Shown: positions 14,797-38,300 of the stretch, in pieces
How positions within the stretch are numbered: position 1 is the stretch's first letter
Layout: each line of letters begins with the position of its first letter
NCBI GenBank assembly: GCA_950295325.1
Contig: OX485804.1
Span: forward strand, 50,146,429-50,210,428
From: Polytrichum commune
Taxonomy: Eukaryota; Streptophyta; Polytrichopsida; Polytrichales; Polytrichaceae
Direction of reading: 5' to 3'
Length of the DNA: 64,000 bases
The notes under the pieces: model-generated
The model's database searches: none
Told to the model about the DNA's origin: nothing
Seen by the model: the letters and a program-made list of their open reading frames with translations, nothing else
Position numbers and translations under genes: made by a program

Positions 14797-14830
14797 AACA
14801 CTATATTAAACATTTCGGGACTTCTGAGTG
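14797..14830 (+). repeat. Candidate left terminal inverted repeat
   Basis: It starts AACACTATATTAAACATTTC and continues GGGACTTCTG. It pairs with 38267-38300 at 27 of 34 positions. Preceded by GGTT. Confidence 0.5.
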
Positions 14831-14865
14831 TCCCAAAATGAGAAAAACATGTGTACTGTTGCCCA

Positions 14866-15050
14866 TCGGGAACACGGGAACGTCATTGGGAACACGTTGG
14901 GGAACATGACTGGGAACATGGGAACATGGGAACACGGAAGGGAGCACCTATGAGGACAAGGGAACGTGTGAGGGAACGCTCATGGGGACTAGTGGATGTG
15001 CTTTGCGTGACATGAGCATTGGTGAGTCATGGATATGGGAACAAATAATT
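14866..15050 (+). repeat. GGGAAC-rich subterminal repeats, left
   Basis: About ten GGGAAC motifs occur here, including ATTGGGAAC, GGGAACATG and GGGAACACG variants, most of them within 14868-14980. The mirrored motif is found just inside the right terminus. Confidence 0.7.
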
Positions 15051-15393
15051 CTGGTAATGTTTGCATCCATGCATGCCTCCATAACATGCATCATGCACAC
15101 CTCTTACATGGAATATTGATAATATTCATTATTGGTTGGCATATTATAGAACATCACACATTACACGTGGACAAATGCTCGACACTTTTTTGAGAAGCCT
15201 TACATTAAGGTTGTGTATACACCACACATGTGGGTATGCCATTTCTGGCATCCCGCACGTAATGCTCCTGTTGGAGTTGGAACAAAAAATATTTCATTTG
15301 TCAAAATTGGACCACCCTAGCCCCTACAATCTAAACAAAGCAAGTTTGTTTCGTCTAGATCCAACCAGCATGCTTGTTAACCCTATTTTTTTA

Positions 15394-18300
15394 TCACCGC
15401 AAAGTGCGTCCACTAGATGGTCGTCTGCCTGTTGCATGTCCATGGCAACCTTGAGGCGCACTAGAGTCCACGACGTCCACCTCAACCACCCTCCGTCCAC
15501 GCTCTGCTGTTGAGCATCGTCGAAGATTATCTTTGGCAAATCCAATTTGCTCTGGTGGAATAGTAACCCTTAAGGGCTCAACATCTTGATGTTCTGGCAG
15601 AGGCCAAGCTGCCAATATGCAATCGATTGGTTGCCAGTCTGGAATGGAGTATTTCAAGTCACGTTTCCACTTGAAGTTGGGGTTTGAGTCCCACCCACTC
15701 CATTTCTTTGATAGGTCTCTGGCGGTTGAAGTGGGAGTGAACCATTGTACAAGAATTTGGCGTGGATGCTCTCCCGTGACATCCATGTTGGGTGCAGACA
15801 ACGCACGGCAAACCCAAATGGGTCGTACTATATCTTGTTCTTGGGGACGCAATATTAGCAAATGCCCTTCATGCACATTATCGGCGATGCGGAAAGCAGG
15901 TGCGGGACGAAGGTTTGCTGGACCAACATAATGGTGATCCGGCTGGTGCTCTTCCCGAAGCTCTCCATTATGCGAGAACGGATGGGCATCTAATTGGACT
16001 GTACTCCGTGGCCAGAATCCCTCAGCTAATGGCAAGCCGGGTGTGTACACGTTAGTGAGATGTGTTTGCAAGGCCTCCTTCACCCCTATCCAATATTGCA
16101 AGATATGCATGTGTGAAACCATGTATGCTCCAGTCGTGTCATGGTCACATATTGATTGCCAATAATCAATAAACCCTTGCAGACCCACAAGAACATCCTC
16201 AAGCTTGGCCATACCTCGAGGTGGTGCAGGAGAAGGGTCCCCGGATGGGAGACATGGCTCCCCTTTTATATTGGATTTCCACATCAATATACCATCTTTG
16301 GGCAACCACTCCTCGTGTGTGCTGAGCACTTTGTACTGCATAACAGGCCAACCATCATCTCGGACATAAAATTTGAACTGTTGGGCCTTTGTGTGCCCAA
16401 TGAGTTTGTTGTTACCATTGGGAATATGATCACCAACAAAGGCCCTCCAGTCCGGAAGTTCCTCGATCATATGCGGAATAACTGGAACTTTTTCCATATC
16501 CATGTACGATTTCATGAGGAGGGGGATAGTGGGGTAATCGTGTTCACGTAGGTCCATGCTCCATCTTCCAAATGATGCATCGATATCATCATGCGTATGA
16601 CCAACCAATAGGTAAGACACATGTACCTCCATGAATATTTTTTTCGCCGTGAGCAGAGACCAAAATGCCTTTACAAACCTGCACTTGTTGTCCTTCCAGC
16701 AATTATCAAGTTGAACATGCAGAACAGGTGGAAGGGGAATAGCTGGGATGGGCTCCGTTGGTGGAGGTCGTAATCCTTCCAAACATATATCACTCCCATG
16801 AAGGATAGCACGATAAAGAGGGGACCGCCCCGAACCCTTGAATAGATTGCGAGATGATGATATTGGAGATTCCTCCAAATCACGGAGAAGTCTCGCGAAT
16901 GAACCTACAGTATGGTTGCAATCTCCAGGGTACATATCCAGAGCATAGTGAGCATATCTCTCATCTCCATGTCCATGGGCCATCATTCCTGTTACAGAAA
17001 GTGGTAATTTTGTAAACATGTCAGTGTCTTTGTTCTTGGCAGCAAAGCATGGTGACGCAGTTTTGCCATGGTCCATTTTATCATGAATGATAGTCAACAC
17101 CTTTCGGGGGTGTTCAATCGAAAGAGCCCTCATACAACGGTACGCATTACGTGCAGATTCTTGCTGCGCTTGGTGCCTCGCCAACTGTTTTGAAAAACCA
17201 GTGTGGGCAGCTGAACCTTTGACATGTTGAAGAATAATGGCCGAAAGCGAATCACACTTTCCACAACGAGCAAAATTGTCACCAACCCTTTTCATAACGT
17301 AGTGTTTAAAGTAGTTATTCCGTATTTTGCTCAGGGTTGAGAGTGAAATTGGTTGCAAACCGCATTTCTTGTTGACCTGCAAAATTGCCAGATAAATAAC
17401 CATTATTGACACCTCCTATGAAGACCAATTCAAGAGTCGCATTGGTAATTTCAGAATAAGCCATTCGTTTTATGTATACTGAAGTATTTACACCAAGCGA
17501 TGAGAACAACTATATCATATGCTTACCTCATTGATGGTGACCAAAAATTTCTTCCATTTTGTCCCGCGAGGCAAGACCATTTCAACAACACGAGTACCAT
17601 TTGGCAAAGTGCGGGCCTTATGAGGCATCATGTCGGCTTTATCTTCCAGTAGCGTTGAAAGAGTGGCAGTAGCTTGTTGGGTGGATGTTCGATTCCGTTT
17701 CATGTTTAGATTCCCATGGTCACGTGGACGCATGCCACACTTGAATTCTGACCGGTTTCTGTAGAATGTTGTCTTTGAAATTGAAAAAATGTGTCTCCAT
17801 GCTTTTTCACAGACATTGCGACCACTCAAAGTGACAACATTCCTGAAATCGCCCGGAAGTGCATGTAATTGTCCATGGACCTCGAGTTGTTTGGCATGTC
17901 TCATGCGGCTTGAACAACTATAAAACTCGGTTCGCAATTTCAGAGCCTCATCCCTAGGAAAATACCTAGTGCACTCTCGATTGCAACAAACAATTGCGGA
18001 AAGCTGACAGATACTGGCATTATCAAGTATTTTCGATTTTTTCGTCGGTTTGATATGTAAGGATGTACGCAATGAGACATATGCCCTCTTCCCTTCATTC
18101 CTTCGTTTCTCTAGCAATTTGGTTTGCGCACGCAACCTCCATGCGCCCACATGAAGATGGTGTGCAAGTGTATATCTCTGGTGGAAAACTCCAGATATTG
18201 GCCACGATCTCAATGAGAACATCGATCCCATGTCCATCATACCCTCGATTGGTTCCATAATAAGGACCCCAACGTGATCTGCTCCAAGGCATTTGTCCTC

Positions 18301-18615
18301 TACACAATCCATTGGGTTGACATTACGGCAAATTCCCTTTGCAACATTTTCTCCATGTGCATTCACAAGCATAACTGGAATGTTCACCCACTGCTCCCTT
18401 TGAAGCCCACTACATTGCACATCAATATCCTCGGCACCAACATCGATTTCTTCTTCCGTGAATACTGCCTCGGAAAGAGATAATTCCTGTATGGAACTCA
18501 ACTTAATACATGTTCAAATCATCAAACGATATTGCAAGATACGGGTATATGACAGCAATGTGGGATGACAATATACCTCATCCGTATTAGCAGAGTCTGT
18601 ATCCGTTTGCTCCAT
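15394..18615 (-). CDS. DUF7869-type transposase-like protein, three exons
   Basis: Exons on the minus strand are 18615-18577, 18486-17527 and 17376-15394. The junctions GAG/GTATAT, ATACAG/GAA, GAG/GTAAGC and TTGCAG/GTC are all phase 0, giving about 993 residues. The short first exon starts at the ATG with M-E-Q-T-D-T-D. Exon 2 has a Cys-rich segment (C-C-N-R-E-C). Exon 3 carries the recognisable core: D-K-M-D-H-G-K-T near residue 432, V-Q-L-D-N-C-W-K-D-N-K near 557 and V-G-H-T-H-D-D-I-D near 593. This is the pattern of DUF7869 proteins found in plant, fungal and animal mobile genes. The three acidic sites look like an RNase-H-fold DDE/D triad (inference). The C-terminal part (about 860-950) is a Trp-rich reader-like domain of unknown role. 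No in-frame stop interrupts it, so it may be intact. A TATA box and a palindrome array lie upstream. Confidence 0.8.
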
Positions 18616-18639
18616 TTTCCTAAAAAACGACACCCTTAT

Positions 18640-19320
18640 TAATAACAATACATTATACAAGTTCTTAAGCCATAATATAACAGTGACAAGTAATTACTAA
18701 GACCGTCGACAACGCAACCACACCTATAAGAACGACCTCATGTTCAGTGAATCTAAAATGGATCTTCTAAAAGAGGCTACACATAGTAGAACCGGTGCAC
18801 GTGAGGATGCACTTCATCAAGAGGAACATCTACGGGGAAATCAAATGGTCAAGTGGAACCTCTGGAAAGGTCCACTTCAAGTAGAACATCTATGAGAACA
18901 TCCACTGTAAAGTGGAAACATGTCTTCGAGGTCCCAGTCGACGAGGACCTTGTAAGCTCAATGAAGAATGCACTATCCAGAGGATACTCAATGATGGATC
19001 CATTCGATCGCGTGGTCTCAATGACGGATCAACTAGATCGATTAGAACCAATTGACAAAAACCTTTGTGACCATGGACACGGGGATCCACTCGATCGAGG
19101 GGACCTCTCCAAGATGATCGACTCGATGTCTTGGATCCTCTCCTACATGATTCCCTTGAGGTAGAGGCTCCACTCGGTCGTGGATCCTATTGGAGAAAAT
19201 CCCTTTGGTATAGATGATTTTATTCGTGTATCCTCTCCTAGAGGATCCACTTGGTGGCGATGATCTTTTGAGAGCATCGTGTCCCATTTAGTCCTAGGAG
19301 GATTCACATCGTGGAGAGGA
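18640..19320. repeat. Degenerate palindrome zone 5' of the DUF7869 gene
   Basis: Imperfect relatives of the CCACTCGATCGAGTGG core are scattered here, for example near 18997, 19027, 19090 and 19168, mixed with GGTCCACTT and GGATCC motifs. It appears to be an older, eroded part of the array that begins at 19321. Confidence 0.55.
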
Positions 19321-19857
19321 TCCACTCGGTCGAGTGGATCCGCATCTAGAGGATCACTTGGTGTAAGAGGAGCCACTCGACCGACTGGATCTTCACCGAG
19401 AGGATCCCCCTGGTGTAAGAGGGTCCACTCGATCGAGTGGATCCTCCCCTAGCCCACCCCCTTCGTCTAAGAGGATCCACTGGATCGAGTAGATCCTCTC
19501 CTAGCCCACCCCCTTGTTGTAAGAGGGTCCACTCGATCGAGTGGATCCTCTTACACCAAGGGGGTGGGCTAGGAGAGGATCCACTGGATCGAGTGGATCC
19601 TCTCCTAGCCGACCCCCTTGCTGTAAGAGGATCCACTCGATCGAGTGGATCCTCTCCTAGCCGACCCCCTTGGTGTAAGAGGATCCACTCGATCGAGTGG
19701 ACCCTCTCCTAGCCCACCCCTTTGGTGTAAGAGGATCCACTCGATCGAGTGGATCCTCCCCTAGCCGATCCCCTTCGTCTAAGAGGATCCACTCGATCGA
19801 GTGGATCCTCTCCTAGCCGACCCCCTTGGTGTAAGAGGATCCACTCGATCGAGTGGA
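19321..19857. repeat. 52-bp tandem array built on an 18-bp palindrome
   Basis: TCCACTCGATCGAGTGGA or a close variant starts at 19321, 19372, 19424, 19476, 19528, 19580, 19632, 19684, 19736, 19788 and 19840. The spacing is 52 bp after the first step of 51. Most sites extend to GGATCC on each side. Spacers read CTCTCCTAGCC..ACCCCCTTGGTGTAAGA, and one unit is inverted. The array lies between the candidate core promoter (about 20080) and the ATG (18615) of the DUF7869 gene, so it is probably leader or 5' intron sequence. Confidence 0.9.
19492..19581. repeat. 90-bp near-perfect palindrome in the 52-bp array
   Basis: Arms extend 45 bp on each side of the centre at 19536/19537 with two mismatched pairs and no spacer. 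It arises because one array unit is inverted relative to its neighbours. It could extrude as a cruciform. Confidence 0.85.
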
Positions 19858-19895
19858 TCTGCGTGGCACAATCTCATCTGGAACGCTCATGATTT

Positions 19896-19911
19896 CCGTA
19901 CAGTTGTACGG
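19896..19911. promoter_or_regulatory. CCGTAC hairpin 38 bp from the palindrome array (DUF7869 side)
   Basis: CCGTACAGTTGTACGG is an inverted repeat with a 4-bp centre. It lies 38 bp beyond the last palindrome of the array, on the promoter side. A near-identical hairpin lies 35 bp before the first palindrome of the ParB-like gene's array. Confidence 0.6.
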
Positions 19912-20075
19912 ATAGGTGGAGAGCAGACCCAACAGCAAAGGTAGTGCAACACTATATTGAACTGCAAGTCTGGAAGAGAGCATGTACTCTATTTATGTGA
20001 GGCAACGGGAAGAAACGCATAGCTGGGTGGGGGCTCTCCAAGAGTGAGTGAAGACAATGAGGTTAGAGATATGAG

Positions 20076-20084
20076 CCTTTTATA
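20076..20084 (-). promoter_or_regulatory. TATA box candidate for the DUF7869 gene
   Basis: The minus strand reads TATAAAAGG here. It is followed about 30 bp later by a pyrimidine-rich CATTGTCTTCACTCACTC stretch suitable as a start site. The distance to the ATG is about 1.46 kb, so a long leader or a 5' intron spanning the array is implied. Confidence 0.5.
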
Positions 20085-23034
20085 GTAGTCGAGTCCGAAT
20101 TTGGTGGGAGATTCCACAGACGGGCCGGTACAGAAAATTTAAAGCTTCCCTCCCTATTGTACAAGGTCCTATCTTGAAGGACAAATTATTCTTTGGCAAG
20201 GTTAGGTAGTACAGAATGATGGTATAGCAAGCTGATGTGGTACGTGGTCCACGGGAGAACTCCATCCACTCATTTGTTGACAAGTGTCCGTCTAATTGAC
20301 CAATTGAAAGGAAATTTCCATTCATATTTGGACCATCAAATTTATCGAAGATTTTTAGATGACATTAATGGGGATCTACTAGTCAACGCAGATGTGGTCG
20401 AAGATTGAATGCAGTCAAGTCTCTATGAATGTTGCAGGTTGAGACTAGCTAAAGAATAACATATATAGAATCATAATGAGTAAGGCTAATAGAATGAACA
20501 TCGATGATTAATAAAACTGATTAGAAATAACTCAATTTATTACTCAATTTATTTGAAAATGAAGAACATAACGTTTTATAAAATAAAAGCATAAAAGATA
20601 ATACATAATTCAACTAAACTAATTGAAAGAAACATACCAAATGCTCAAATACTCAAGCATGATATACGTCACACATTCACTCCCATAAACAGTAGGAGGT
20701 CTGGAACTCTTCGTCGAAAGGGGTTTAAATACAACAAATTATGAAGTTTCGCAAAAAATATCCTAAATCTACTAGTCTTGCTCGTAGATGGAACACATAT
20801 ATCGATCGTAAGAAGTTGTTTTGCAAGAATGTCCTAAGGCCAACTAGCAAGCAAAATGGCTACTAATTCACCTAAGAGAAATTAAAATTGTTGCTTACAC
20901 GAGCATGCTTCTCAACTTTGAGTAAAGTATATCTCCTATTGCACGTTGACAAAGAATCATAGAAATAGAAGTTGGTTTTTAGAAGGGCTTTGAAAATTAG
21001 TGAAGTTTCACTACAAGCTAACTTTTGGGCGGCACTTTGAGTATTTGAATGTGTATTTGGTGGGCCATGGTAATGGTGACTTCTCTCACCATTAAAGAAT
21101 TCAAAGTTATCCCCTCCGTTTGAAATGCATTGGTGGATTTCAACCTTGAACATTGGTGGGGAGGCGTTGGCATGGTTGGGAAGCAACTCTCCATCCAATT
21201 TTGGAAACCCATTTTAGTTGAACTACCGCCTCATGTAAGTCCCAGTCTCATTTTGTGGACTTTAAAAACCAATTACGACTAACATTTATTCCAAGTCATG
21301 TGTTTCTATTAAATTGGCATAACAACCAACTTTTCATACACAATCTAAAAAGTATGTTCTACTCAGGTGGGACTCGACATTAGGATTTGGGTCCAAGAAA
21401 CTTAAATTCAATATGCCCCTTAACAACCTTACTCTCAAACTCAAGTTTGGACCCAAATGTGAAGATTTGTTGAACTCAAACTAAGGGGGGCATTTTCTTC
21501 AGTGCGGATCATGTCACACTAGCAATTCATTTGCTCACACCTTAGACCCTGATCCTACTGTGAACTCCTTGACCAAAGTTTTGCTTTCAACTAATAGGAC
21601 CACTTGAGTTTATTATAGTCTCTTTGGTCTTGGACCATAGTCACGTAAACTCGATGCAAGTTTGGTCAATGAAATGTAGTTGAAATTAAAGTACATGAAG
21701 ATGATGACAAAAAGGCTCACAATACATCAAGGGTGAGACAACTACTGAAAGTTTTGCAAAATACAATGGTTGAATATGTTCGTACCATATATAGGGGCTA
21801 AGGAAGGCTATAAATCTACCACCAAGGTCCACATGGTTGCACAACTCAAGGATCATGACATGAGACCCATGACAAGAATAAGATACTTAGAAATTATGTT
21901 TGTGATGGTGATATTGAATTTCATGTCAAGGCTTGGATCCATAGAAATCACTAGAGTTTTGGCCAACAATGTTATGGCTATATTGAGTATTTAAGTCATT
22001 TAAGTAAACATGGGCATAATTTCAAAATTTGGACTTTATGGTTCCTTTAACTCTTTGAGCGGATTTGTCAATACACTTTTGATACACCTAATTGTCATGG
22101 AAAATATGTGAATGCTTAGTAATTACCTAATTGTTATGTTACTAACATATGATGGGAGAAATCAAATATCTATTTTTTGACATTAATTTATATAAAAAAA
22201 TGTTTATACTGAAAATACAATCCAAACAACTACTATAACAATATCATGATCAACTTTGCATATCTAATTGGAGGATCTCACCATGCGGACATATCGTAGG
22301 ATCCCATGATAAAATTCAACACGTTATAATCTTGGACTTGGACTTAGTCCAATTTTACTTAAATTTTGATTATATTGAGTACCTCTTAAGTTTAACCCCT
22401 AAATGAACAAGGAACAAAAAAAATGACCAATTTTTCAATATATGTATAATAAATCTTCGTTTTGGCTTCCCGGACCCTAAGTTGGCGAGGTGCAATAGCA
22501 CCTCGGGGGGGGGGGGGGGTGATTTGTTGGAGTAACAATATACGTGCGAACAATTGATAGGGTATTTTAAAAACATGGGGACAAAAAATTGCCATTGCAA
22601 TGGACTTAAGAGCAAATATAGGGTATCAAAACCGGCACTGGACATCTTCAAAGTGCCATAGGGTATGGAATAGGTTAATTGGAATTCTAAGTAATGCAAG
22701 CCCCTTGATGTTTAGTGCTTGTCTATACATTGGATGCTAATTACTTGGGTAGGGTGATAATCTTTCACATGTAGTGTTTGCTGAAGTATTAAGGGAACCT
22801 TCACTAACTAGTACTATTCTTCAGTACAATCTAAATTACCTAGCTTCCCAGCAACCCAAAGCTTAAGGATTCCACTTCCAACATGTTCAAATGTGGTGGC
22901 ATGAGAGTGGAGAGTGGACAGGGGGTTATTTCCATTGGATGCGTTAAGATTTAAAATTTTCCACATTACTAACGTGAGAAATGGATAAGTTATTATTATA
23001 TTATTGCCAAGCGAGTCGTATTTCATTTGAAGAC

Positions 23035-23072
23035 AAACCCTAAACCCTAAACCCTAAACCCTAAACCCCTAA
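23035..23072. repeat. Interstitial plant-type telomere repeats
   Basis: Five consecutive AAACCCT units (complement TTTAGGG), the last imperfect. A shorter run, two to three units, lies at 25379-25397. Such short runs are common inside plant chromosomes and in plant gene promoters (telo-box) and do not mark a chromosome end. Confidence 0.85.
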
Positions 23073-24440: not shown

Positions 24441-24609
24441 GCCATGTTACTTTTTCTTTAAAATAACCGGATTAGTAGTGATAGGTTGGCAACACAAGAT
24501 GGCCCCACTTGCTTCTATATGAGGCATTATGTATTTTTCATGTCTATACCCCTTTTATATTGCTACCTTAAGTATTAGATTAACCCACCCACATAATGTC
24601 AGCACAACG

Positions 24610-26855: not shown

Positions 26856-26889
26856 AAGTGGATAGGTCATCATTGATATAAACTTGAAG

Positions 26890-27420: not shown

Positions 27421-27950
27421 AAAAGTTAACCCCTAAAGTTTAACTTCTGAACTTAATTCATTCCACCTTGAACTTCTGAAGTTAACTTCTGAACTTAATG
27501 TTAACTTGTCAACTTATAGATAACTTCTGAGATTAATCTTCAATTCTCAACTTGAAAGTTGTTAACTTGTCAACTTAAAGATAACTTCTAAACCCAATCT
27601 TCAATTCTGAACTTGAAAGTTGTTAACTTGTCAACTTAAAGATAACTTCTGAACCCAATCTTCAATTCTGAACTTGAAAGTTGTTAACTTGTCAACTTAA
27701 AGATAACTTCTGAACTTAATCTTCAATTCTGAACTTGAAAGTTGTTAACTTCTCAACTTATAGATAACTTTTCTGAGATTAATCTTCAATTCTGAACTTG
27801 AAAGTTGTTAACTTGTCAACTTAAAGATAACTTCTGAACTTAAAGATAACATCTGAACTTAATCTTCAATTCTGAACTTGAAAGTTGTTAACTTCTCAAC
27901 TGAAAGTTAACTTCTGAAGTGAAGAGTTAACTTCTGAACATGAAAGTTGT
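27421..27950 (+). repeat. 61-bp tandem repeat
   Basis: CTTGAAAGTTGTTAACTTGT recurs at 27551, 27612, 27673 and 27734, a 61-bp period, with shorter related units before and after. The repeat is built from TTAACTTCTGAA motifs. Confidence 0.85.
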
Positions 27951-28070
27951 GAATGCATACATTTTGTGAATGCATAAATTTTGTGAATGCCATCTTGTTT
28001 TAGTGAATGCATACATTTTGTGAATGCATAAATTTTGTGAATGCCATCTTGTTTTAGTGAATGCATACAG
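27951..28070 (+). repeat. 54-bp tandem repeat
   Basis: GAATGCATACATTTTGTGAA starts at 27951 and 28005, with a partial third unit at 28059 (54-bp period). Units also contain TGCCATCTTGTTTTAGT. Confidence 0.9.
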
Positions 28071-28500: not shown

Positions 28501-28515
28501 TCCGTATTGTACGGA
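28501..28515. promoter_or_regulatory. TCCGTA hairpin 35 bp before the palindrome array (ParB side)
   Basis: TCCGTATTGTACGGA is an inverted repeat ending 35 bp before the first TCCACTCGATCGAGTGGA at 28551. It matches the hairpin at 19896-19911 in sequence and in position relative to its array. Confidence 0.6.
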
Positions 28516-28550
28516 CAAATTGGAGTGCTTGAACACAGGCAGTGGCCAGT

Positions 28551-28951
28551 TCCACTCGATCGAGTGGAAGTGGCCACTGCCTGGCCGCCTGGGTGTGCCC
28601 AGGGCACTGGCCACTTCCACTCGATCGAGTGGAATTGGCCACTGCATGGCCGCCTGGGTGTGCGCAAGGCAGTGGCCAGTGCCTGGCCGCTTGGGTGTGC
28701 GAAATGCAGTGGCCACTTCCACTCGATCGAGTGGAAGTGGCCACTGCATTTCGCACACCCAAGCGGCCAGGCACTGGCCATTTCCACTCGATCGAGTGGA
28801 ATTGGCCACTGCATGGCCGCTTGGGTGTGCGCAAGGCACTCGCCACTTCCACTCGATCAAGTGGAAGTGGCCAGTGCCTGGCCGCCTGGGTGTGCGCAGG
28901 ATTATCACCCCATTAACATCACACCTTCCAACTTCCACTCGATCGAGTGGA
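28551..28951. repeat. Palindrome array 5' of the ParB-like gene
   Basis: TCCACTCGATCGAGTGGA lies at 28551, 28616, 28718, 28783, 28848 (one mismatch) and 28934. Each is embedded in GGCCACTT/AAGTGGCC arms and separated by CTGGCCGC.TGGGTGTGCG spacers in both orientations. The core is the same as in the 19.3-19.9 kb array although the spacers are different. The block is open in nearly all frames because of its composition, which I treat as an artefact. Confidence 0.9.
28673..28780. repeat. Perfect 108-bp palindrome without spacer
   Basis: The two 54-bp arms are exact reverse complements about the centre at 28726/28727, within the third core site. Pairing fails just outside 28673 and 28780. Long perfect palindromes are normally unstable, so perfection suggests recent formation or active maintenance. 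Confidence 0.9.
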
Positions 28952-29067
28952 AGTTTCTTTTGAATGGAGTGGGTACTAGGGATAGACAAAACTTCTATAC
29001 AATTGAAGATCTCAATGGAATTGCCCATATTAATGTATTGATATTGTTTCCATGCCCATTGCAGGTC

Positions 29068-32000
29068 ATGGAGAGGGAGGTACTGTGGACAGACCTTGTT
29101 GGCACACTACAAGAAGGGCCAAATGGGCCCTACTGGGTTGTGAAGGACTCGCACTTGAAGCATTGGTCACTCCAAGTGCATCAAAAGGACAAGAGGTCTC
29201 CCTTGCAGTTATCATTTGCTTTTCGGATAGACAAGAGCTGGATTCCAAATCCTGGAAACCCTATAACCTTAGCTGCTGTGGGTACTAGGGATAGGCTAGA
29301 TATCTCAGTGCAAGAGGGACTCGAAGTGAGAGTACTATCCATTGATTGCAAAAAACATGTATTCCACTTGGAGCCATTTTTAGAGTCAATCTCAACGCTC
29401 CCTTCAAAGGACAAGGAAGACATACAGACAGTTATGGTATCTGGAGTATCGAAGAAGGCGATCAATTTTGTACTGGAGTCACTAGGGGATATCAATGAAA
29501 AGTTGAAAGCCGAACAAGAAGCATCATTGAAGCAGAGGAAGAAGCAAGCAGAGAATGTTCTAAAGCCAAGGACACATGATGGAGGGAGTAGCAGGTCGAC
29601 TCCCCAATCAAAGAAAGGGTCGCAGAAATCCGGCGACGATGATTTGCGAGGCACAACTGAGGCGAAGCCCAAAAAGAGAGGCGAGATTGTACAATTCTCC
29701 ACGGCAATGGATGCCGACGATATTGACAGGCCTGCGAGTACCAGAAACAAAGCGCATGGAAAGCGAGCATCATCACCAGAAAGGAAGACAAAGCCCAAGA
29801 AGATGAAGTCCACGGAGGAGGACACCCCCTTGGTGCTTACTGCAACAGAGAAGGGGAGGGTTATTACGCATGGCGAGGAACCCAGCCTCGAAGAAGCAGC
29901 AAAGGACCGGAAGAAGTTCATTCAACTTTTTGGACACCTCTATCCATTTGGGGTCGAAGCAGTCTTTAGGGTGAACATAAAAAAGATGACGAGCGCCAAA
30001 GCATATCAGGTCACTCGTCCACTAGATGATGCCGGGGTGGCGCTTATGAAGAACTACCTCGTTCAAACGCCACCCGCATGGCCCCATCACAATCTGTGCT
30101 TGATGCCCAAATTTAAGAAGGGGGAAAAATGGAGAGAAGGGATGACGTGGGACGACATAAAGGACGGACAGTTTGTTATCATCAACGGACAGCACAGCGT
30201 TGCTGCATCAAGGCAAATAATAGGCCATAGAGACACAGAGCCAGCATTGCGAGAAAAATTGAAGGTATGGCCGTGCACAATAGTTTGGAGCGATGATCCA
30301 AGCATGACTGTTCGACTCTCCTACACGTTGAATAACTCTAACTCATTCAACAAATTTACTCCAACATGGACAACACAGATCATGTACTGTCGCCGGGTGT
30401 GGGTGAAATTGGGAAGGCCTCATAAGCAGCGAGTCAATGCTGCTGAGGGATCTCTCGATCCAAATATGTCTACGGCCTGGAAGGTATGTCATACTCTATA
30501 TGTATAAAGGCTTAATAATAAGTGATCGTTTACTCCTAATTCATGGTTGTATACTATGGACCCCCACTCGATGTATTTATGCATTGTATGCAATGTATAC
30601 TATGAAACTACACTGCTGCGAGGGTTCCACTCGATCGAGAGGAACTACACTGCTGCAGGGGTTCCACTCGATCGAGAGGAACTACACTGCTGCAGGGATT
30701 CCACTCGATCGAGAGGAACTACACTGTTGTCTGTATGTTTAATATTATTTGTATGTATGTTTCATACTGTATGTATGGCCACTGCAAGTCTATGTTTCAT
30801 ATTGGCTCTTTTGTGACTCATAAATTCTGGTATTTTGACATGGCAGAATTTCACCACAAGTATGGAGGCGTCTTTCACAGCCATAGCTAGAGGAATCACC
30901 CACGCAGATCTGAATGCAGAGCTCACCCTCATCATGGCTCCAGATCCGACGTCTAGATTGTGGAGGAAGATTTTCATAGCACACGAAGAGGGCACACTCA
31001 TGAATCCAGATAAGCCTGGGTACACATTTCTGGATGACTACGTTGAGGCCCAACAGAAGCTGCGAGCCCGTCACGAAAAAAAGAAATCGCCTTCTGCGTT
31101 TGAAGAGAAGCCCTATGTCTGCAAACCTCTAACAAGGGAGACTTTCAAAAACATGGCCGGCCTTACACGGTCTGATTACTTCCTCTTGGCACAACGTATA
31201 CTGGATGTAAGGGATGGAGAGGATGTTCCCAGAGTGACACTGAGAGCGTCAAAGAACCCGAAAGTTTCGACCTTGAAGTCTTGGTCCAACTTTAGGAAGT
31301 GGAAGAATATCTTACTTCAAGAGTTGTCGTCACGCGATCCCAAACAGCGTGGTATATGGGGAAAGGATCCGGAGGGTTTTGATTGCGTTGACCGAGCCGT
31401 TTGGGGTAAATTCAAAAAGGAGCACGGGATCACAAAGGCAAAGTGGGTTAAGCTCTACCAGGTTGCGGGTGATACATGGCTCAATAAGAAGCGGTTGCCG
31501 AACAACAAGTACCTCGAGGCACCCCCTGCATGCGACCGATTGCTGCACGAATGGCTTCAAACAGATATGCGAGAATGCAGTTCCAAGGTCATCACTCGGT
31601 GGGTAGATTACAATTCAATCAAGAAGCAATTGGTAATCCCCCACCAAGACAATAGCGATATCCAGTGGTTGAGTAAAAACAACATATGTGCTGGATTTAT
31701 AGACTTCAGATTTATCCCTGGAAGCGTGGATCAACCTGTGGCCACTTCAGTCGTGGAGTCATTGGTCAAGTATGTTAGCAATCCCACATGGTCCCCGGGT
31801 CTCAAGCTTGTTCCTGCTTGGATGATTGTATCGGATCTCCGTAACCACACAGCTGCAGTTGAGTTCATATCTATGTTGTGTCGGAGGCATCCAGACACGT
31901 TTGTCAATGTACCATCATTCTATTTCCCCTGCCCCGCTGAGGATCTGCCACCATGCAAGGAAGTAGACAGCAAGAGGACTTCTCCGGCTCTTTATGTCGA

Positions 32001-33719
32001 CTTTCTGACGACCAAGCTGCTACCGAGGTTCAAAGTCTTCCCATGCCCCATGTTAGCTCCTGGATCTCGACGTTACACGGTTAGTCCCAAGCAGTGGTCC
32101 GAATTGACTTATGAAGTGAGTCGCGGCGAGCTGAGAATGGAAACGTATCTTACGTTCCTTAGCCACCTCGGATGCTCGGGAGCAGTGGTCATCAATTTCT
32201 TCGGAGGATTGAAGCCAATAGCTGCCGCACTGGTCAGTTCATTGCACCTCTCCGTTTCGCAACCTGTTCCATTCATTGGTATGCTCTCAACCATGCATTC
32301 TTTATTTTTGCTCATGAATTATTTGTGTGTGCAGATGAACGCATACAATGTATTTTCGTACATGGATTCGAATTTCATGCATACGTTCGCCGATAAATTG
32401 GCGCATATTCGTCCCCTTCGGGCTGTTGACTTCGAAGAGGAGGAGTCTCATTTTGATGCTCAACCTATTCGAGATGCATCCCCTCCCAAAATGCTGGTAC
32501 GTATACATTATTCCATGACTCAAGTGGTCACACCATATTCAGCTTCCAGTCGATCGACTGGAAGCTGGGTGGCCTTGCATTCCACTGACCTCTTTCATTC
32601 TTCCCATGGCCTAACATTCTTGATTTATGACAGGATTATGTCCCAAGAGACCATTCTCCCGTTGTCGGCATCGACAATATGGATATCGACAACCCTGTCT
32701 CTGATGGGGAAGATTACGAGGAGGCTCAAGATGATGACGACGAGCGGGAGGCACCAAGCGAGCAGGACACCGATGAGGTAAATAGCGAGCACGATGCTCA
32801 TTCCTTGCCTTTGGAGTTGCCCACTTCCCCTTTGCGAGCCAAGGCCCTCGACTTCGACTCAGTGATGGACGCACGCCGAGAGCATCCGGCAGAACCACCA
32901 GAGGAGGAAGACGATACCGAAAGAGATGCCGTTGGCGACGGCGAAGCCAACGAGGGCAATGAGGAAGATCAAGATGATCAAGAAGAAGATCAAGAGTATG
33001 ATCGCGACTCCGACCGTGAGGATGATCGTAATGACGACCGCGATATAGAGGAACTTCATGAGGCTAGTTCGAGGTCGTCCAGTTCAGATGATATCGGGCA
33101 AGACCTTCCTCCCCCGAGTTCATCGAAACCTAGTACATCCACGAGGAGTAGGCATGTACCTAGTAGATCACCCGCCAAAGAACTGCAGTGGAGACGACGA
33201 AAACAAAGACCGATGGAGCCTGTCATCACCGAATCTATGATGGAAGACAAGATTGTGGGTATTCTGAGCAAAACTTTGCCTCAGATGTTGTCGGGTATGT
33301 TTCAAGAAGCGATGTCTCAGGCCAAAGTTTTGCCCTTCCCACAACCGACTCAGATGACACCTTCAGTGCATGTCGCAACCTCGACTCGGCCCGAAGTCCC
33401 AATCGACCGAGTGGATGCAGATCAGGCTATTGCCGTGCAAGGTGTCGATGAGGATAAACCCCTGAACGTGCAAGCGGATACCCCGACTTTGGAAGTGGAT
33501 ACCCCGACGTTGGAAGTGGATGCCCCGACGTTAGAAGTGGATGCCCCGACGGTTGACATTGAGGCGTCGGCTATTGCCATGGAATTGGACTCCCCCGCCA
33601 CGGCTGATACGAATGTAAGTAATCTTTCCTAATGTTTTAGCACTTTGAATGCCCCTATACAAGTGACTGAATCTCCACCTGGATGTTTGATCCAGGTCCG
33701 AGACGGCGCACCATTGTGA
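29068..33719 (+). CDS. ParB-like domain protein with possible degenerate methyltransferase region, five exons
   Basis: Exons are 29068-30483, 30847-32232, 32335-32496, 32634-33614 and 33696-33719, all joined in phase 0, giving about 1322 residues. The ATG lies three bases after an acceptor (TTGCAG/GTC). Residues 1-290 have a novel N-terminal domain, a Lys-rich coiled stretch and a basic NLS-like tract. About 293-472 is ParB/sulfiredoxin-like: V-I-I-N-G-Q-H-S-V-A-A-S near 370 and later L-N-N-S-N. Exon 2 has W-M-I-V-S-D-L-R near 796 and V-V-I-N-F-F-G-G-L-K-P-I-A-A-A-L near 919. These sit where beta-class amino-methyltransferases have DPPY and the FxGxG motif, but the DPPY residues are absent, so activity is doubtful. 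Exon 4 is strongly acidic, then carries a 7-residue DTPTLEV tandem repeat (33479-33560). ParB-methyltransferase fusions are known in phages and bacteria; the comparison is inference. Confidence 0.6.
30607..30727 (+). repeat. 37-bp palindrome-bearing repeat in intron 1
   Basis: TTCCACTCGATCGAGAGGAA occurs at 30625, 30662 and 30699 (37-bp period), separated by CTACACTGCTGCAGGG. It is a variant of the leader palindrome with one asymmetric base per arm, inside the first coding intron of the ParB-like gene (30484-30846). Confidence 0.9.
32541..32566. repeat. 26-bp perfect palindrome in intron 3
   Basis: The centre is TCCAGTCGATCGACTGGA, extended by AGCT on both sides. It differs from the leader palindrome by a paired C/G exchange in both arms, so symmetry was kept while sequence changed. 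It lies in the intron 32497-32633. Confidence 0.9.
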
Positions 33720-33851
33720 AGCGTTCGTGATCGACTATGAAGCCAGATCCTTCGATCCATAGTTTAGTTTAGTTTGGTTTTTCCCATTCACGCCAGTGTA
33801 GACCGCCCTCAATGTGAAGGCAAGATGGAATATGTGCGCCTCTTTATTATG

Positions 33852-33857
33852 AATAAA
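33852..33857 (+). terminator. AATAAA poly(A) signal after the ParB-like stop
   Basis: AATAAA lies 133 bp after the stop of the short last exon and 42 bp before the next acceptor (TTATGCAG/TCT at 33899/33900). It could act as an intronic poly(A) signal if transcripts continue into the next gene. Confidence 0.5.
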
Positions 33858-33905
33858 GTCATTATTTCCCTTCATCCTTCAATTTTGTGTTTTATGCAGT
33901 CTTTA

Positions 33906-35779
33906 ATGCTCCGTTGGACTTCACAGGCTTCGTTGCCAATCTTAGAGCACGTGGATCTTCCGTCTACAATAATGCCTCTTCCAGCGTCGCCTTTGTTCGA
34001 TGGTGGGAAGAATAATCCATTGCCCATTTGTGGGCCCCTACAAGCACCGATAGCCACCGTAGCTTCTCGGCCTCCCCCGCCACTCTCGGACCCCTCGGAT
34101 TCTATTCCAGATACTCCTCCGCCGTCCCCTGTTGCATCGATCCCTTCACATCTGTTGCCCAATGTTGCGGGATGTTGCTCTCAGCCTGAGCCTTGCGCGA
34201 TGGAGTCCTCTCCCCAGTCACAAGTCGAGTTGCAAAAAGTCGACTTGCTACCTTCGACGTCTGTTGTGGAAGTCATCCCGACAGATCCGGCAAGTCCACA
34301 AGCCGACAACATTGTCCCCCAATCAGTGAAGAGATATTTGCAACGATGGCCACTCGGCGACAGCAAAGGCGACCCCAGATTTGACAACACCACTCTACAT
34401 GATTTCCGAGCAATGCACAATAAGCAAGACGAGGACAAGCGGCGGGCAGCTCTCATCGACAATGTCCCTAGTCATGTCAATGTAAGTTCCCGACATCCAT
34501 GACTACTTCCCGGTGCGTAAACTGCATATTTATGTAGCTATCTATGTATAGAGTTTTGCCCTCACATCGAATTTTACATCGCGTAGTTTTGGGTTCAGGG
34601 TCCCCAATGCACGAATACGGCTATGGATGCGCCTGTACCAAAACATCTTGTTTATGATAAGCTCTTTGTTTACGATGACACCTACCCAAAGGTCAATAGG
34701 CCTCTCCAAGTATTTACAAGGGAGATGGGAATCGCGTGTGCTAAAAGACTAATGTCTAAGTATCCTGAAGATCCCTCCTTAGGATCTTCTGATCTATGGG
34801 AATTCAATCCGATACGCTATGAGGTATTGGTCCGGTCACATATTACTGTTCTTAGGATTCTCGCTTTCGTATCCTCTGCGCCATTGACCTACCACCAAAA
34901 TATAACTAAGTCATGCATTGGTGAACTATATTATGCTTAGTTTAGTTCAATTGTTAAGTTCATGGTAGTAAGTTTAAGATGCTCACCATGGATTCATTTC
35001 GGCAGGCGCCTGCTGCTGTCCCCCGTCGAAGGTTCATTGTGGTGTTCGATTTAAATGGCATATTTTGCCACTGTACCCCCCGTCTCAAGAATATGGTAGC
35101 TGTCCCTACTTGGATAATGCAAGATCATGCGCTGGACAAAGATCCTGCCTTGGTAGGGCCCAAGGTTGTCCTCCCTAGACTGGGATACAAACAGTTTTGG
35201 GAGAGCATGTCTACAATGTACCATCTTTGCATTTGGTCCTCCATGAAAAAATCTACAGTCGATCTTGTGGTGGAGTATCTTTTTGCTGGGATGCCTAAAC
35301 CCGCTATGGTACTCGGCCAAGAGGATTGCATCACCTTCAAGGATATGTGGGGAAATGTCGTGAGGAACCCTTTGAAGCCACAATCTGTCTTGTTTTTCAA
35401 AAGTTTGACATCAAGGTTTTGGTGGCCACCTATATCCCTTGATGAAGGGAGGATTACTGCTACAATTTCCAACACCATACTTGTAGATGACTGCCCTTAC
35501 AAGTCTGCTTGTAATCCGGACGAGTGTGGCTTGTTTCCCAGTCCCTTCACCAATAACCGGGTCGACGATGCAGACATGACAAAGGTTCTCCTCCCTTTCT
35601 TTCAAAGTATGTTCTACTCACCAATGTCAGACGCACGCGATTTCTTGGTAAGACGTAGATTTGGGCAGCAACCTATCAGGCATAACGACGCAGTCAAGCT
35701 GGCAATTCAGAAATCCAACAAGTTTCCCAATCAACCCGCATTGCAACCCTTAGAGCCTGTGCAAAGAAAATTAGGCTAA
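33906..35779 (+). CDS. FCP1/NLI-interacting-factor-like HAD protein
   Basis: Exons are 33906-34481, 34599-34823 and 35006-35779, phase 0 at each junction (AAT/GTAAGT, TTCAG/GGT, GAG/GTATTG, CGGCAG/GCG), about 524 residues. The first 190 residues are Pro/Ser-rich and probably disordered. The third exon is the FCP1-homology domain of the HAD superfamily: V-V-F-D-L-N-G-I near residue 282 (motif I), C-I-W-S-S-M near 350, and I-L-V-D-D-C-P-Y-K near 427, closing with F-G-Q-Q-P-I. The second Asp of DxDx is Asn, as in the plant DLNG subgroup, so phosphatase activity is uncertain. The first ATG is chosen six bases after an acceptor; an upstream splice from 33614 in the same phase would fuse it to the ParB-like protein. 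A weak donor at 35759 could skip the stop at 35777. Confidence 0.65.
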
Positions 35780-35833
35780 CTAGCATAATTAGGATTATAT
35801 GCCATGTAACATTGTATTTCATGCTATCTTCAG

Positions 35834-36137
35834 TTTCCTCCTGCTGGATACACACCCTCAAGTTCCACACGATCTGCTTTCGTGTGCCCGGCACCGGGCC
35901 ATCTGCGCAATCAAGTCCTGGTGCAAGAAACTTCAGTAATGTGTCATCCATTGGATGCTCCAGTTCTGAAGGGCACTCACTCTGAAGATCTCTTCCACCA
36001 CTCCCAAACGACTGAAGGTTCCCATCTGGTAATTTTTGTGGCAATTCTCACTGCTTGAACATGGATAATGTTATTGAGTAAATGTTTTGTAATATTTCTA
36101 CACATCATTGTCAACGCAGGCTCATTTGCATGAATGA
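35834..36137 (+). CDS. Possible extra 3' exons of the FCP1-like gene
   Basis: After an acceptor (ATCTTCAG/TTT) the frame is open for 65 codons, 35834-36028, starting F-P-P-A-G-Y and ending at CTG/GTAATT. A second acceptor (CAACGCAG/GCT) at 36119/36120 gives a last exon A-H-L-H-E-stop. Both are phase 0, matching the upstream gene. They could be joined to it from the weak donor CCT/GTGCAA at 35758/35759. No domain is recognised. Confidence 0.4.
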
Positions 36138-36143
36138 CTGAGA

Positions 36144-36752
36144 ATGGATATGAATATGCATGGATGTATATGTCAAGAACAATGGAATGTAGTAAATTGG
36201 CCCAATGCTTGTCCCGTTGTCACCGTGCAGAATGTTGACCTCAATATGATCCCCCAATTGGAAGAATCGGCACCCCCTATTCAAACGTTGTCAATCGTAC
36301 GCCCGACCACTACACGCGATTACCAAATTTCGCTAATCGAATCAAGAGGCCCTAATTCAAGGGGTGTCCAAATGTTGCGTGCTGGATTGGCTGGCATTGG
36401 AAAGACTTATGTGCCTCAAGCAGTCGCGACTACAGTACCGTTTCCCCTTTTCAACGCGCAGGGTGCTGACCTCAATATGACTGGTCTACTGGACAGTTCA
36501 ACACCACCTACCGAAACAATGCGCATCCCCCGTCCCCTAGCTACCCGCGAGCATCAAATTGCTCTAATCGAATCAAGAGGACCTAATTCACGAGGTGTAC
36601 ATCTCTTGCATGCTGGACTAGCGGACATAGCCAAGACAGCTTCCCCTCACACCGGGCAGCCAATGGTCACCCCCCCTTTTGAAGCCACAATACATAATCT
36701 CCATTCTGATGGACAACTATTCCGTTTGTACCCTAAATATAGTAGAAGTTAA
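36144..36752 (+). CDS. Small protein with two 77-residue repeats
   Basis: The open frame has about 203 codons. Two copies of a module begin at residues 30 and 107 (nucleotides 36231 and 36462, a 77-codon period). They share D-L-N-M, then R-P..T-R..Q-I, L-I-E-S-R-G-P-N-S-R-G-V and A-G-L-A..K-T, at 36 of 59 compared positions. Each copy is directly preceded by an acceptor-like GTGCAG or GCGCAG in phase 0, so the duplication probably copied an exon with its splice border, and the true exon may start at 36231. I recognise no known domain. It lies between the FCP1-like gene and the next repeat protein, all on one strand. Confidence 0.5.
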   Translation: MDMNMHGCICQEQWNVVNWPNACPVVTVQNVDLNMIPQLEESAPPIQTLSIVRPTTTRDYQISLIESRGPNSRGVQMLRAGLAGIGKTYVPQAVATTVPFPLFNAQGADLNMTGLLDSSTPPTETMRIPRPLATREHQIALIESRGPNSRGVHLLHAGLADIAKTASPHTGQPMVTPPFEATIHNLHSDGQLFRLYPKYSRS

Positions 36753-37071
36753 AGTTCCCATACCAAATGTGTGAGGACATTCATACTTGTCTACTGCATT
36801 ACTGCATTATGTAATATATAAAAGGTGGCTAAACACATTCACTTGCCAATGCAGTTGTGTCCATCATCTGCATGTCTATGTACTCATTGTATGTAACCTA
36901 AATGACTTGCATGATTCAACATTTCCATGATGCCTTGGACTATCCTAAACCTCATATGTGTCTTGCATCAACATTTCCATGAACCACTGTATGCACTATG
37001 TAAGGCTGCCATTGTTTGTTGCACAAATATTCACGCGTGTACATATATTTCAAATGTCCTGCCAGGAGGTT

Positions 37072-37941
37072 ATGGACGCTCCTCCTGCCCGAGCCCCCTC
37101 ATGCCCATCTAGATTTGGGGAGTGGATCCAGAGATTACAAACAGCTGTTCCGGATGCCCCGTTGGACGCCCCAACAGAAGTGGGAAGTATGGATGACGAG
37201 TTTAAGAACTTAGCCAATGATATTGATGTGTGCACGGAGCGGTTCTGGCAACTACAAACAAATATGACTACAGCTCTGGATAGATATCAATGGTGCCGCT
37301 TGGTTGGAATGGATGCACACATGCTTGGTAGATTGGTGCATGCATCTATCGATATAGGGCTCACCATCCCCCAAGTGGAGTTCCTCCAACAACGTGTACC
37401 TGATTTGCACTTAATGGAGAAAGATATGTGGGAAGCCACACAAGAAATCGAACCTCATTTAGATGACCTACTCCATCCTGATTCGGAGGCGATGGTGAAC
37501 CATGTCTATGACAATGAGGAGGAGAACCTCCCAATCACACCAATGTTGGAAGCATGTCGGATGGACCAACCAACTCATGAGGAAAGGGGTCCGGTCGAGC
37601 CCCCAATGGGAGAGCATACAATTGACGACGAGTTTATTCACTTAGCAGAGGAGATTGATGAAGTTACAGATAAGTTTATGAAGCTACAAACGACTATGAC
37701 CACTGCTCTAGAGAGATATACGAAGTGTCTTTTGCTCAGCGATCGCATATACAACCTTGAGAGAGTGGTGCTTGCGGCACAACATATTGGGTTTGACTCT
37801 CAACAAATGGGCTATATCGAGAGCAAAATCCCAGACTTGATGTACATGGAGAAAGTTGCGTGGGAACAATCATTGGAAATCAAACCTCATTTGGAAAACA
37901 TATATGAGTCCATGCACAATCAAGTCAAAAACTTAGAGTAA
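37072..37941 (+). CDS. Helical protein with two 144-residue-spaced repeats
   Basis: The start is the ATG six bases after an acceptor (CTGCCAG/GAGGTT, phase 0), giving about 289 residues. Two helix-rich modules begin at 37189 and 37621 (432 bp, 144 codons apart). They share D-D-E-F..L-A..I-D..T-(E/D)-(R/K)-F..L-Q-T..M-T-T-A-L-(D/E)-R-Y, then P-D-L..M-E-K..W-E and I-(E/K)-P-H-L. The modules are predicted by eye to be amphipathic helices, possibly a coiled-coil or oligomerising protein. There is no signal peptide or membrane segment and no recognised family. The last gene before the right terminus, it is followed by AATAAA at 38079. Confidence 0.55.
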   Translation: MDAPPARAPSCPSRFGEWIQRLQTAVPDAPLDAPTEVGSMDDEFKNLANDIDVCTERFWQLQTNMTTALDRYQWCRLVGMDAHMLGRLVHASIDIGLTIPQVEFLQQRVPDLHLMEKDMWEATQEIEPHLDDLLHPDSEAMVNHVYDNEEENLPITPMLEACRMDQPTHEERGPVEPPMGEHTIDDEFIHLAEEIDEVTDKFMKLQTTMTTALERYTKCLLLSDRIYNLERVVLAAQHIGFDSQQMGYIESKIPDLMYMEKVAWEQSLEIKPHLENIYESMHNQVKNLE

Positions 37942-38078
37942 TTCCAGTTCAGCCATTTAAAATGCATTATACTTAGGACAATACTCAACACATTACGTAT
38001 CTTCTAGCATAGATGCGTGTTTCCTTGGAGGACATTGTGGGAGCAGTTCCCTCCATGTATGATCATTTCTTTTTGTTT

Positions 38079-38084
38079 AATAAA
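38079..38084 (+). terminator. AATAAA poly(A) signal near the right end of the element
   Basis: AATAAA lies 138 bp after the stop at 37941 and about 215 bp inside the right terminus. Confidence 0.55.
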
Positions 38085-38180
38085 ATCAACAGGCAAGCAA
38101 CTTTCTGGGGACCCATCAGATAGGTCCCCAGGTGTGTTCATGTTGTTGGTCACCCACATGGCAAATGCAAACTACCATTG

Positions 38181-38224
38181 GACTCAATGAGTTCCCAATG
38201 AGTTCCCAATGAGTTCCCAATGAG
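38181..38224 (+). repeat. GTTCCC subterminal repeats, right
   Basis: AATGAGTTCCC recurs every 11 bp (GTTCCC at 38191, 38202 and 38213). The complement, CATTGGGAACT, matches the CATTGGGAAC found in the left subterminal repeats. Confidence 0.75.
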
Positions 38225-38266
38225 TTGCGTATGAGGTCCCCACTATCATCACATATGTCCCAAAAT

Positions 38267-38300
38267 TACCCAAAAGTCCCATTATGTTTAATATGGTGTT
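38267..38300 (-). repeat. Candidate right terminal inverted repeat
   Basis: Its complement starts AACACCATATTAAACATAAT and continues GGGACTTTTG. It pairs with 14797-14830 at 27 of 34 positions and is followed by GGTT. Confidence 0.5.

Follow-up and report, generated by a model that had tools for sequence, protein, structure and literature searches.

A 64,000-nt stretch of the Polytrichum commune genome (C2:50146429-50210428, hereafter the window) raises the question of whether the DNA between its positions 14797 and 38300 is one large transposon or two unrelated pieces lying side by side, and of what its genes would do for it if it is one. The region carries a minus-strand gene with a DUF7869 domain and a large plus-strand gene with an FCP1-like end, which the initial annotation had joined into a single element. 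In the current study, we compared this region with its relatives in the same genome (408 Mb, 64 contigs) and found that 14797-38300 is a single 23,504-bp terminal inverted repeat (TIR) DNA transposon. As an explanation of the whole locus, we favor a giant TIR transposon with a DUF7869 transposase and a dedicated palindrome-recognizing accessory protein, to which we assign a probability of about 80%.

The ends of the element both start with AACAC. The left end (AACACTATATTAAACAT...) and the complement of the right end (AACACCATATTAAACAT...) are identical at 27 of 34 positions, a modest match whose count we recomputed exactly as first annotated, and a scan of the whole window returned the right end alone as an inverted match of at least 25 to the left 34 bases. 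GGTT stands directly outside both ends, and the GGGAAC repeats that had been described as common to the subterminal regions number 10 in the left 304 bases and 4 in the right 301 bases, vs. 39 in the whole window (both strands). In alignments to the whole window, position 14797 is the starting point of four copies (the C4 copy, the two on C6 and an internally deleted one on C2), 14796 that of the C7 copy and 14793 that of a C1 copy, and the right-hand limit is 38300 (38301 for the deleted C2 copy). With a right-end query that included 20 flanking bases, 39 of 41 genome rows begin at query positions 17-21, no more than four bases from base 38300, and 33 begin exactly at position 21 (base 38300); of the remaining two rows, one is the window and the other a second fragment of a locus already represented. 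The left-end query gave 51 rows, of which 34 start at base 1, four at bases 2-5, and 13 are internal pieces. Since this query started at the end itself, the left breakpoint rests instead on the whole-window alignments. Perfect 4-bp target-site duplications (TSDs) flank all 11 own-genome elements with both ends located (0.78-48.6 kb), and no two are alike: GGTT, CATG, TTTG, ATGT, CTTA, and GTAC in the window element, four complete copies and the deleted C2 copy, and five others given in Table 1. The locus at C2:42.77 Mb was excluded from this count, its left end being absent from the 501 bases examined, and C1:55.98 Mb, C6:41.34 Mb, C1:7.84 Mb, and C2:3.00 Mb were examined at the right end only. 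The earlier view of 14797-38300 as one unit is thus borne out by whole-length copies that end at these very points with 4-bp duplications, and 14.8 and 38.3 kb both act as breakpoints.

An empty site adds to this evidence. When the flanks of the C4 copy were joined with the duplication kept once, all 40 scored genome matches (the best 40 of 3,007 first-look candidates) spanned the junction in alignments of 198-200 bases, and 18 of these were 100% identical. The result concerns the C4 copy alone, and the uninterrupted matches indicate that this copy inserted into a high-copy repeat, other copies of which lack the element. Common exact inverted termini, a fixed 4-bp TSD, and an empty site are features of class II TIR transposons. 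Transposition was recent, since only 35 mismatches in 23,566 aligned columns (indels not counted) separate the window element from its nearest copy at C6:38.16 Mb. These mismatches are concentrated, with 27 of the 35 in 19626-22590, and the indels lie mostly in repeat arrays; the C4 copy differs by 118 mismatches in 22,041 columns. Undeleted elements range from 21.7 to 48.6 kb. Nested insertions are likely in the 42-49-kb elements, because the FCP1-like exon of the 48.6-kb C3 element is split between two matches. At the other extreme, the 4.2- and 0.78-kb deleted copies retain both ends and TSDs, as if they had been mobilized in trans.

The association of the two genes extends across the genome. 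We scored 66 DUF7869 (of 2,332 candidates), 141 FCP1-like (of 1,043), and 90 ParB-like relatives (of 929), all of which are lower bounds. Fifty-five of the 66 DUF7869 genes have a divergent FCP1-like exon no more than 70 kb away (no more than 38 kb in 52 cases), relative to a random expectation of 0.46 (maximum 4 in 1000 trials), and a ParB-like exon lies between the partners in the expected orientation in 51 of these 55 pairs, three of the four exceptions being interleaved pairs. Likewise, an FCP1-like exon is found inside the element within 20 kb of the right end in 36 of 40 cases (within 4 kb in 33), and two of the four right ends without one belong to short deleted copies. The right-end count used 40 of the 41 rows (omitting the second piece of one locus) and 74 of the 141 FCP1-like rows; the pairing count used 76 of the 141, the distant-family count 58, and seven second fragments were used nowhere. 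Distant DUF7869 and FCP1-like families form 12 pairs with less than 30 kb between the partners, and seven of these are divergent, against 0.35 on average and at most 4 in 500 random trials. One of these distant elements, at C7:2.39-2.41 Mb, has homologs of all parts, with 44-50% identity in DUF7869, 24% in the ParB-like stretch, and 31% in the FCP1-like domain, and showed no AACAC-type end with up to six substitutions. The concern that DUF7869 copies might end elsewhere finds no example in the close family; this distant element does not display ends of the same type. Mirror-image DUF7869/FCP1-like gene sets that resemble inverted duplicates of elements were also observed at C2:23.26-23.29 Mb and C6:4.95-4.98 Mb.

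The DUF7869 gene points to the left terminus, as first annotated, and consists of three minus-strand exons with GT-AG introns, running from 18615 down to 15394. The spliced frame encodes 993 aa with no internal stop, and DUF7869 is the only Pfam match in the protein. The motifs were examined in an alignment of its core with the longest open stretches of 12 own-genome relatives. The first acidic motif, [HI]D[KG]MD, occurs in all nine rows that cover it, the second, Q.DN, in 9 of 11 (the remaining two reading QASN and QMNN), and the third, GHTH[DE]D[IV]D, in 11 of 11. This order of D, D, and GHTH[DE]D[IV]D is as expected of a DDE/D transposase, and the DUF7869 protein is very probably the predicted transposase of the element. 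The Ka/Ks ratio (non-synonymous to synonymous substitutions, obtained with a purpose-written Nei-Gojobori script) is about 0.15-0.21 for exon 3 (0.20 vs. C7, 0.15 vs. the second C6 copy, C6b) and 0.25-0.29 for exon 2 (0.27 and 0.29, respectively). A separate genome-wide search gave 1,491 first-look DUF7869 candidates; the best 150 were scored and all exceeded the Pfam cut-off, many with open frames of 502 and 692 aa. DUF7869 had no match in any of 14 control genomes, gave nothing meaningful in a PDB sequence search (best E 0.1), and returned no paper in a search of the open literature. Relatives sought in viral contigs yielded one pattern match and no confirmed case.

In place of the four plus-strand genes first proposed, the plus strand holds mainly one, in the orientation that had been given for them. 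Between 29068 and 35779, seven exons with GT-AG introns, all in phase, form a 1,841-aa frame with no internal stop, a gene model predicted from sequence. Its labels fared unevenly. The NIF domain of exon 7 scores 42.5 bits against a Pfam cut-off of 21.8, which confirms the FCP1-like label (PF03031), and the label ParB-like rests on a motif alone, IINGQHSVAAS in the window and IIDGQHSVMAA in a relative of 24% identity. In that relative, sub-threshold matches to DUF6551 (E 0.074) and DUF1015 (E 0.2) fall on this motif. The middle part of the protein is possibly derived from a methylase, judging by a C-terminal pattern in exon 2 (VVINFFGG...AAL) that recalls by eye the S-adenosylmethionine motif of DNA methylases. 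Residues 1-988 were scanned jointly against Pfam and the remainder as separate open reading frames (ORFs). NCBIfam and PHROGs returned only a sub-cut-off dullard-like match for the FCP1 part and matches of E 0.11 or worse, and Foldseek with a low-confidence AlphaFold2 (AF2) model of the ParB-like region returned no match at E<=0.001. Upstream of the gene, window 27470-28070 contains tandem-like AACTTCTGAACTTAATCTTCAATTCTGAACTTGAAAGTTGTTAACTTGTC-type repeats with indels between copies.

The best-conserved parts of both genes, i.e., DUF7869 exons 2-3 and the ParB-like region, exon 2, and FCP1-like exon of the large gene, are under purifying selection (Ka/Ks 0.10-0.29). In the large gene, Ka/Ks is 0.12 for the ParB-like region vs. 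both C7 and C6b, 0.14 and 0.10 for exon 2, and 0.24 and 0.22 for the FCP1-like exon, a figure that excludes a value of 0.53 from a 45-codon, 66%-identical piece of the deleted C2 copy; ORF5 gave 0.34-0.39. Synonymous divergence (Ks) from C7 and C6b is 0.06-0.11 for the DUF7869 exons, ORF7, the FCP1-like exon, and ORF9, 0.14 for the last ORF, and 0.23-0.40 from the ParB-like region to ORF6 (window 29089-34499). The middle of the large gene is thus several-fold more diverged than the outer parts, a mosaic which suggests that a central module was swapped between lineages.

The element also contains arrays of palindromes. The TCGATCGA octamer occurs 17 times in the window and never outside the element, and around each occurrence the sequence reads as a perfect palindrome of 10-108 bases. 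These sites fall into four clusters, one ahead of the DUF7869 gene, one ahead of the large gene, and one each in introns 1 and 3 of the latter. Perfect palindromes of at least 18 bases with G+C of at least 30% number 13 in the element vs. one in the other 40.5 kb of the window; after shuffling of the element in two-base blocks the mean was 0.06 (maximum 1 in 200 shuffles). All four other complete copies have the two clusters ahead of the genes and the one in intron 1. Palindromes of other lineages were read from stretches of four other elements. At C3:1.97-1.98 Mb, 10 sites before both genes share the core in other arms (CACTTTC-ACTCGATCGAGT-GAAAGTG); at C7:2.39-2.41 Mb, 11 sites before both genes and beyond read GGACGCGCGTCC or GAACGCGCGTTC; C2:18.05 Mb has three of TCTCGGCCGAGA on the DUF7869 side only; and C5:31.81 Mb has a single GAACGATCGTTC. 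Outside the element, the window also contains a perfect 26-bp palindrome, GCCATGAGCTATGCATAGCTCATGGC, at 54794-54819.

Table 1. Features of the window element (window positions) and related elements elsewhere in the genome.
Feature	Position	Strand	Basis or remark
Left TSD, GGTT	14793..14796	.	Sequence, copy comparison
Left TIR, 34 bases, 27 identical to right end	14797..14830	+	Copy alignments
Left subterminal GGGAAC repeats	14868..15042	+	10 in first 304 bases
DUF7869 exon 3, 660 codons and stop	15394..17376	-	Pfam PF25273 E=6.5e-41; motifs HDKMD / QLDNC / GHTHDDID
DUF7869 exon 2	17527..18486	-	GT-AG introns in phase
DUF7869 exon 1, proposed start codon	18577..18615	-	Splice model
Palindrome array A, upstream of DUF7869 gene	19091..19852	.	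8 TCGATCGA-centered sites, typical GGATCCACTCGATCGAGTGGATCC
Palindrome array B, upstream of large gene	28556..28946	.	5 sites, typical ACTTCCACTCGATCGAGTGGAAGT
Large gene exon 1, basic linker and ParB-like motif region (IINGQHSVAASRQI)	29068..30483	+	Splice model; relatives
Three imperfect palindromic sites, large gene intron 1	30631..30712	.	GTTCCACTCGATCGAGAGGAAC
Large gene exon 2, perhaps a degenerate methyltransferase-like region (judged only by eye)	30847..32232	+	Splice model
Large gene exon 3	32335..32496	+	Splice model
Palindrome, large gene intron 3	32540..32567	.	CAGCTTCCAGTCGATCGACTGGAAGCTG
Large gene exon 4, acidic, low complexity	32634..33614	+	Splice model; Ka/Ks 0.34-0.39
Large gene exon 5	33900..34481	+	Splice model; Ka/Ks 0.56-0.62 for surrounding ORF
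Large gene exon 6	34599..34823	+	Splice model
Large gene exon 7, FCP1/NIF-like phosphatase domain (FDLNGIF) and stop	35006..35779	+	PF03031 E=7e-11
Downstream ORF, 202 aa, weakly constrained	36144..36752	+	Ka/Ks 0.32-0.36 vs. C7/C6b, 0.47 vs. deleted C2 copy
Downstream ORF, 327 aa, internally duplicated	36958..37941	+	Ka/Ks 0.53-0.56 vs. C7/C6b, 0.73 vs. deleted C2 copy
Right subterminal GGGAAC repeats	38190..38218	-	Sequence count
Right TIR	38267..38300	-	Copy alignments
Right TSD, GGTT	38301..38304	.	Sequence, copy comparison
Complete copy	C6:38162520-38185711		Whole-window alignment
Complete copy	C4:27835849-27860007		Whole-window alignment
Complete copy	C7:14740227-14763257		Whole-window alignment
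Complete copy (C6b)	C6:38871691-38895379		Whole-window alignment
Internally deleted copy, 4.2 kb	C2:26525989-26530216		Both ends and TSD present
Element, both ends, 41.9 kb	C5:17369203-17411084		TSD CCTT
Element, both ends, 48.6 kb	C3:27379344-27427903		TSD CTTG
Element, both ends, 26.4 kb	C2:54960057-54986461		TSD AAAA
Element, both ends, 21.7 kb	C4:12052611-12074298		TSD ATGA
Non-autonomous element, both ends, 0.78 kb	C1:53900886-53901669		TSD TTTA; first base G, not A

Taken as a DDE-type transposase, the DUF7869 protein would act on the ends, and perhaps also on the subterminal GGGAAC repeats, to excise the element and reinsert it at cuts staggered by 4 bp. With its ParB-like motif, possibly methylase-derived middle, and FCP1-like end, the 1,841-aa protein would then be a dedicated accessory rather than random cargo; it may recognize the element's own palindromes and thereby control transcription of the element or its escape from silencing, and, speculatively, its FCP1-like domain could act on RNA polymerase II. 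From the anatomy of the locus we tentatively favor this protein as the putative reader of its own element's palindromes, at somewhat less than even odds. A self-recognition scheme is possible to a similar degree: the protein would load on the arrays of its own lineage, in a parS-like anatomy with a VANC-like effect, and keep the element transcribed, while protein and palindrome co-evolve and become private to each lineage.

The strongest alternative is that the palindromes serve the transposase, replication, or chromatin, or are simply unstable satellite repeats, instead of being sites for the accessory protein. The length of array A, which differs strongly between near-identical copies (8 sites in the window element, 17 in C4 and 3 in C6, with 5 in C7 and 7 in C6b), speaks for this alternative. 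However, the sites remain palindromic while their arms change (and, in some lineages, their core as well), and the positions before both genes are kept in three lineages (the window element's own, C3:1.97 Mb, and C7:2.39 Mb). We regard it as a serious contender that is somewhat improbable. It is unlikely that the large gene is a host-captured passenger, as in Pack-MULEs, that does nothing for the element. FCP1-like phosphatase domains are widespread in eukaryotes, the lower Ks of the outer exons relative to the middle implies that parts have been exchanged, and the 4.2- and 0.78-kb copies moved despite the loss of most or all of the gene, all of which would suit a passenger; but its ParB-like exon keeps its place between the partners in nearly all pairs, its FCP1-like exon lies inside nearly all right ends, with deleted copies making up half of the exceptions, and its sequence shows purifying selection. 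A self-replicating element akin to a virus or a Polinton, which the undeleted size and the multi-domain protein might bring to mind, is highly improbable given the 4-bp TSD and the lack of any polymerase, integrase, or capsid family above the cut-off in ten scanned ORFs (20.5-28 kb held no scanned ORF). Finally, two unrelated elements or a chance juxtaposition with coincidental limits at 14.8 and 38.3 kb, for which the modest terminal match and the DUF7869 genes with no divergent partner might be cited, is already refuted by the whole-length copies with both ends, the TSDs, the divergent pairs, and the empty site.

Several observations weigh against our preferred account of a DUF7869 transposase with a palindrome-reading accessory. 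The link between protein and palindrome is a proposal from the anatomy of the locus, and the searches were confined to one genome. No divergent partner was present within 70 kb of 11 of the 66 DUF7869 genes, and eight of the 66 have an FCP1-like exon within that distance in another arrangement; three divergent pairs are separated by 60-65 kb, four (C2:23.26-23.29 Mb and C6:4.95-4.98 Mb) are interleaved and may not be true pairs, and 28 of 90 ParB-like matches lie outside pairs. At least one stop falls within the matched stretch in 34 of the 66 scored DUF7869 frames, and some exons of the C7 and C6b copies also contain stops. The single-sequence AF2 model of the DUF7869 core (pLDDT, the predicted local distance difference test, 36) is useless for judging its fold. 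The ParB-like region is above threshold in none of Pfam, NCBIfam, PHROGs, and PDB, and no methylase family in Pfam or NCBIfam matches the middle part of the large gene. Constraint is weak in ORF6 (Ka/Ks 0.56-0.62) and the last ORF (0.53-0.56). NIF/FCP1 phosphatases usually carry the catalytic motif DxDx(T/V), with an acidic pair. Since the motif here reads DLNG instead of DxD (FDLNG in both the window copy and a distant relative), FCP1-like catalysis is doubtful.

With regard to classification, CACTA/EnSpm elements have a 3-bp TSD and CACTA terminal bases and KDZ/Zisupton elements an 8-bp TSD; both were rejected, the present TSD being 4 bp and the ends starting with AACAC. Polinton/Maverick was rejected on the absence of PolB and a retroviral-like integrase from the ten scanned ORFs. 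The DNC..NK / GHT..D..F pattern of the DUF7869 protein may resemble Sola. The 4-bp TSD fits the Sola2 superfamily, which is thus a candidate placement. In the part of the Sola2 source available, transposase length is also comparable (888 aa in Dictyostelium fasciculatum), although TSDs are AT-rich there and varied here, including GGTT, GTAC, and CCTT (PMC3627910). The giant DNA transposons of Ectocarpus belong to KDZ, EnSpm, and Sola-1 and are generally above 10 kb, according to the accessible portion of their description (PMC12477816). Among them is the closest known system, Sola1-1_Ec32, which is similar in size (21.5 kb) and, on the other strand from the transposase, encodes a large accessory protein that includes a ParB-like domain; its authors suggested that proteins of this kind may bind the transposon that encodes them and modify it epigenetically (PMC12477816). 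That accessory has 1,104 aa and a recognized DNA methyltransferase, whereas the present protein has 1,841 aa, no recognized methyltransferase, and an additional FCP1-like domain. Moreover, Sola1-1_Ec32 is classed as Sola-1, the present element has a 4-bp TSD, and the same portion of the paper does not mention palindrome arrays (PMC12477816). The initial annotation knew of no element with such cargo, which does not hold for a ParB-like/methyltransferase gene opposite a transposase (PMC12477816) and does hold, in the text available, for the FCP1-like fusion. Term counts in the available text of a 2019 review of giant transposons (PMC6431247) found neither Sola, ParB, nor phosphatase. The literature searched, which took in few subscription papers, held no account of DUF7869 elements, the FCP1-like fusion, or the palindrome arrays.

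In bacterial ParB-parS systems, ParB is encoded beside palindrome clusters. The present element resembles them in how it might work only, a protein with a ParB-like motif being encoded beside palindrome clusters; it differs in being a plant transposon with no sequence-family match to ParB and no ParA-type gene among the scanned ORFs. VANDALs, in turn, are Mutator-type elements. In Arabidopsis they carry arrays of element-specific motifs, in upstream non-coding sequence and introns, beside the gene for an element-encoded accessory protein, VANC, and these arrays consist of tandem repeats, with gains and losses and with differences from one lineage to another (PMC5735166). The VANC21 motif is short and non-palindromic (YAGTATTAY), in contrast to the palindromes of the present element (PMC5735166). 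In addition, VANC binding, with the resulting loss of DNA methylation and derepression, has been demonstrated in Arabidopsis (PMC5735166), whereas binding and loss of methylation are only proposed for the present element.

The surroundings of the element include remains of a long terminal repeat (LTR) retrotransposon on the minus strand at window 56058-58860 (RVT_1, RNase H, and a sub-cut-off integrase match), an ORF at 47648-48553 with an AP2 domain barely above the cut-off (34.8 vs. 33.3 bits), in keeping with a plant genome, and, at 60308-61269 and inverted at 54205-54998, a 0.8-1 kb repeat with many copies around C1:21.26-21.28 Mb.

These results place DUF7869, a domain of no assigned function, in a setting of ends, TSDs, an empty site, and copies that points to a transposase, and they show that this plant genome is rich in giant elements carrying a ParB-like accessory. 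The element is a candidate for VANC-like, sequence-specific transposon control by a protein apparently unrelated in sequence, and its lineage-specific palindromes make binding predictions directly testable. If true, this would be a self-recognition system of eukaryotic giant transposons that acts against host silencing.

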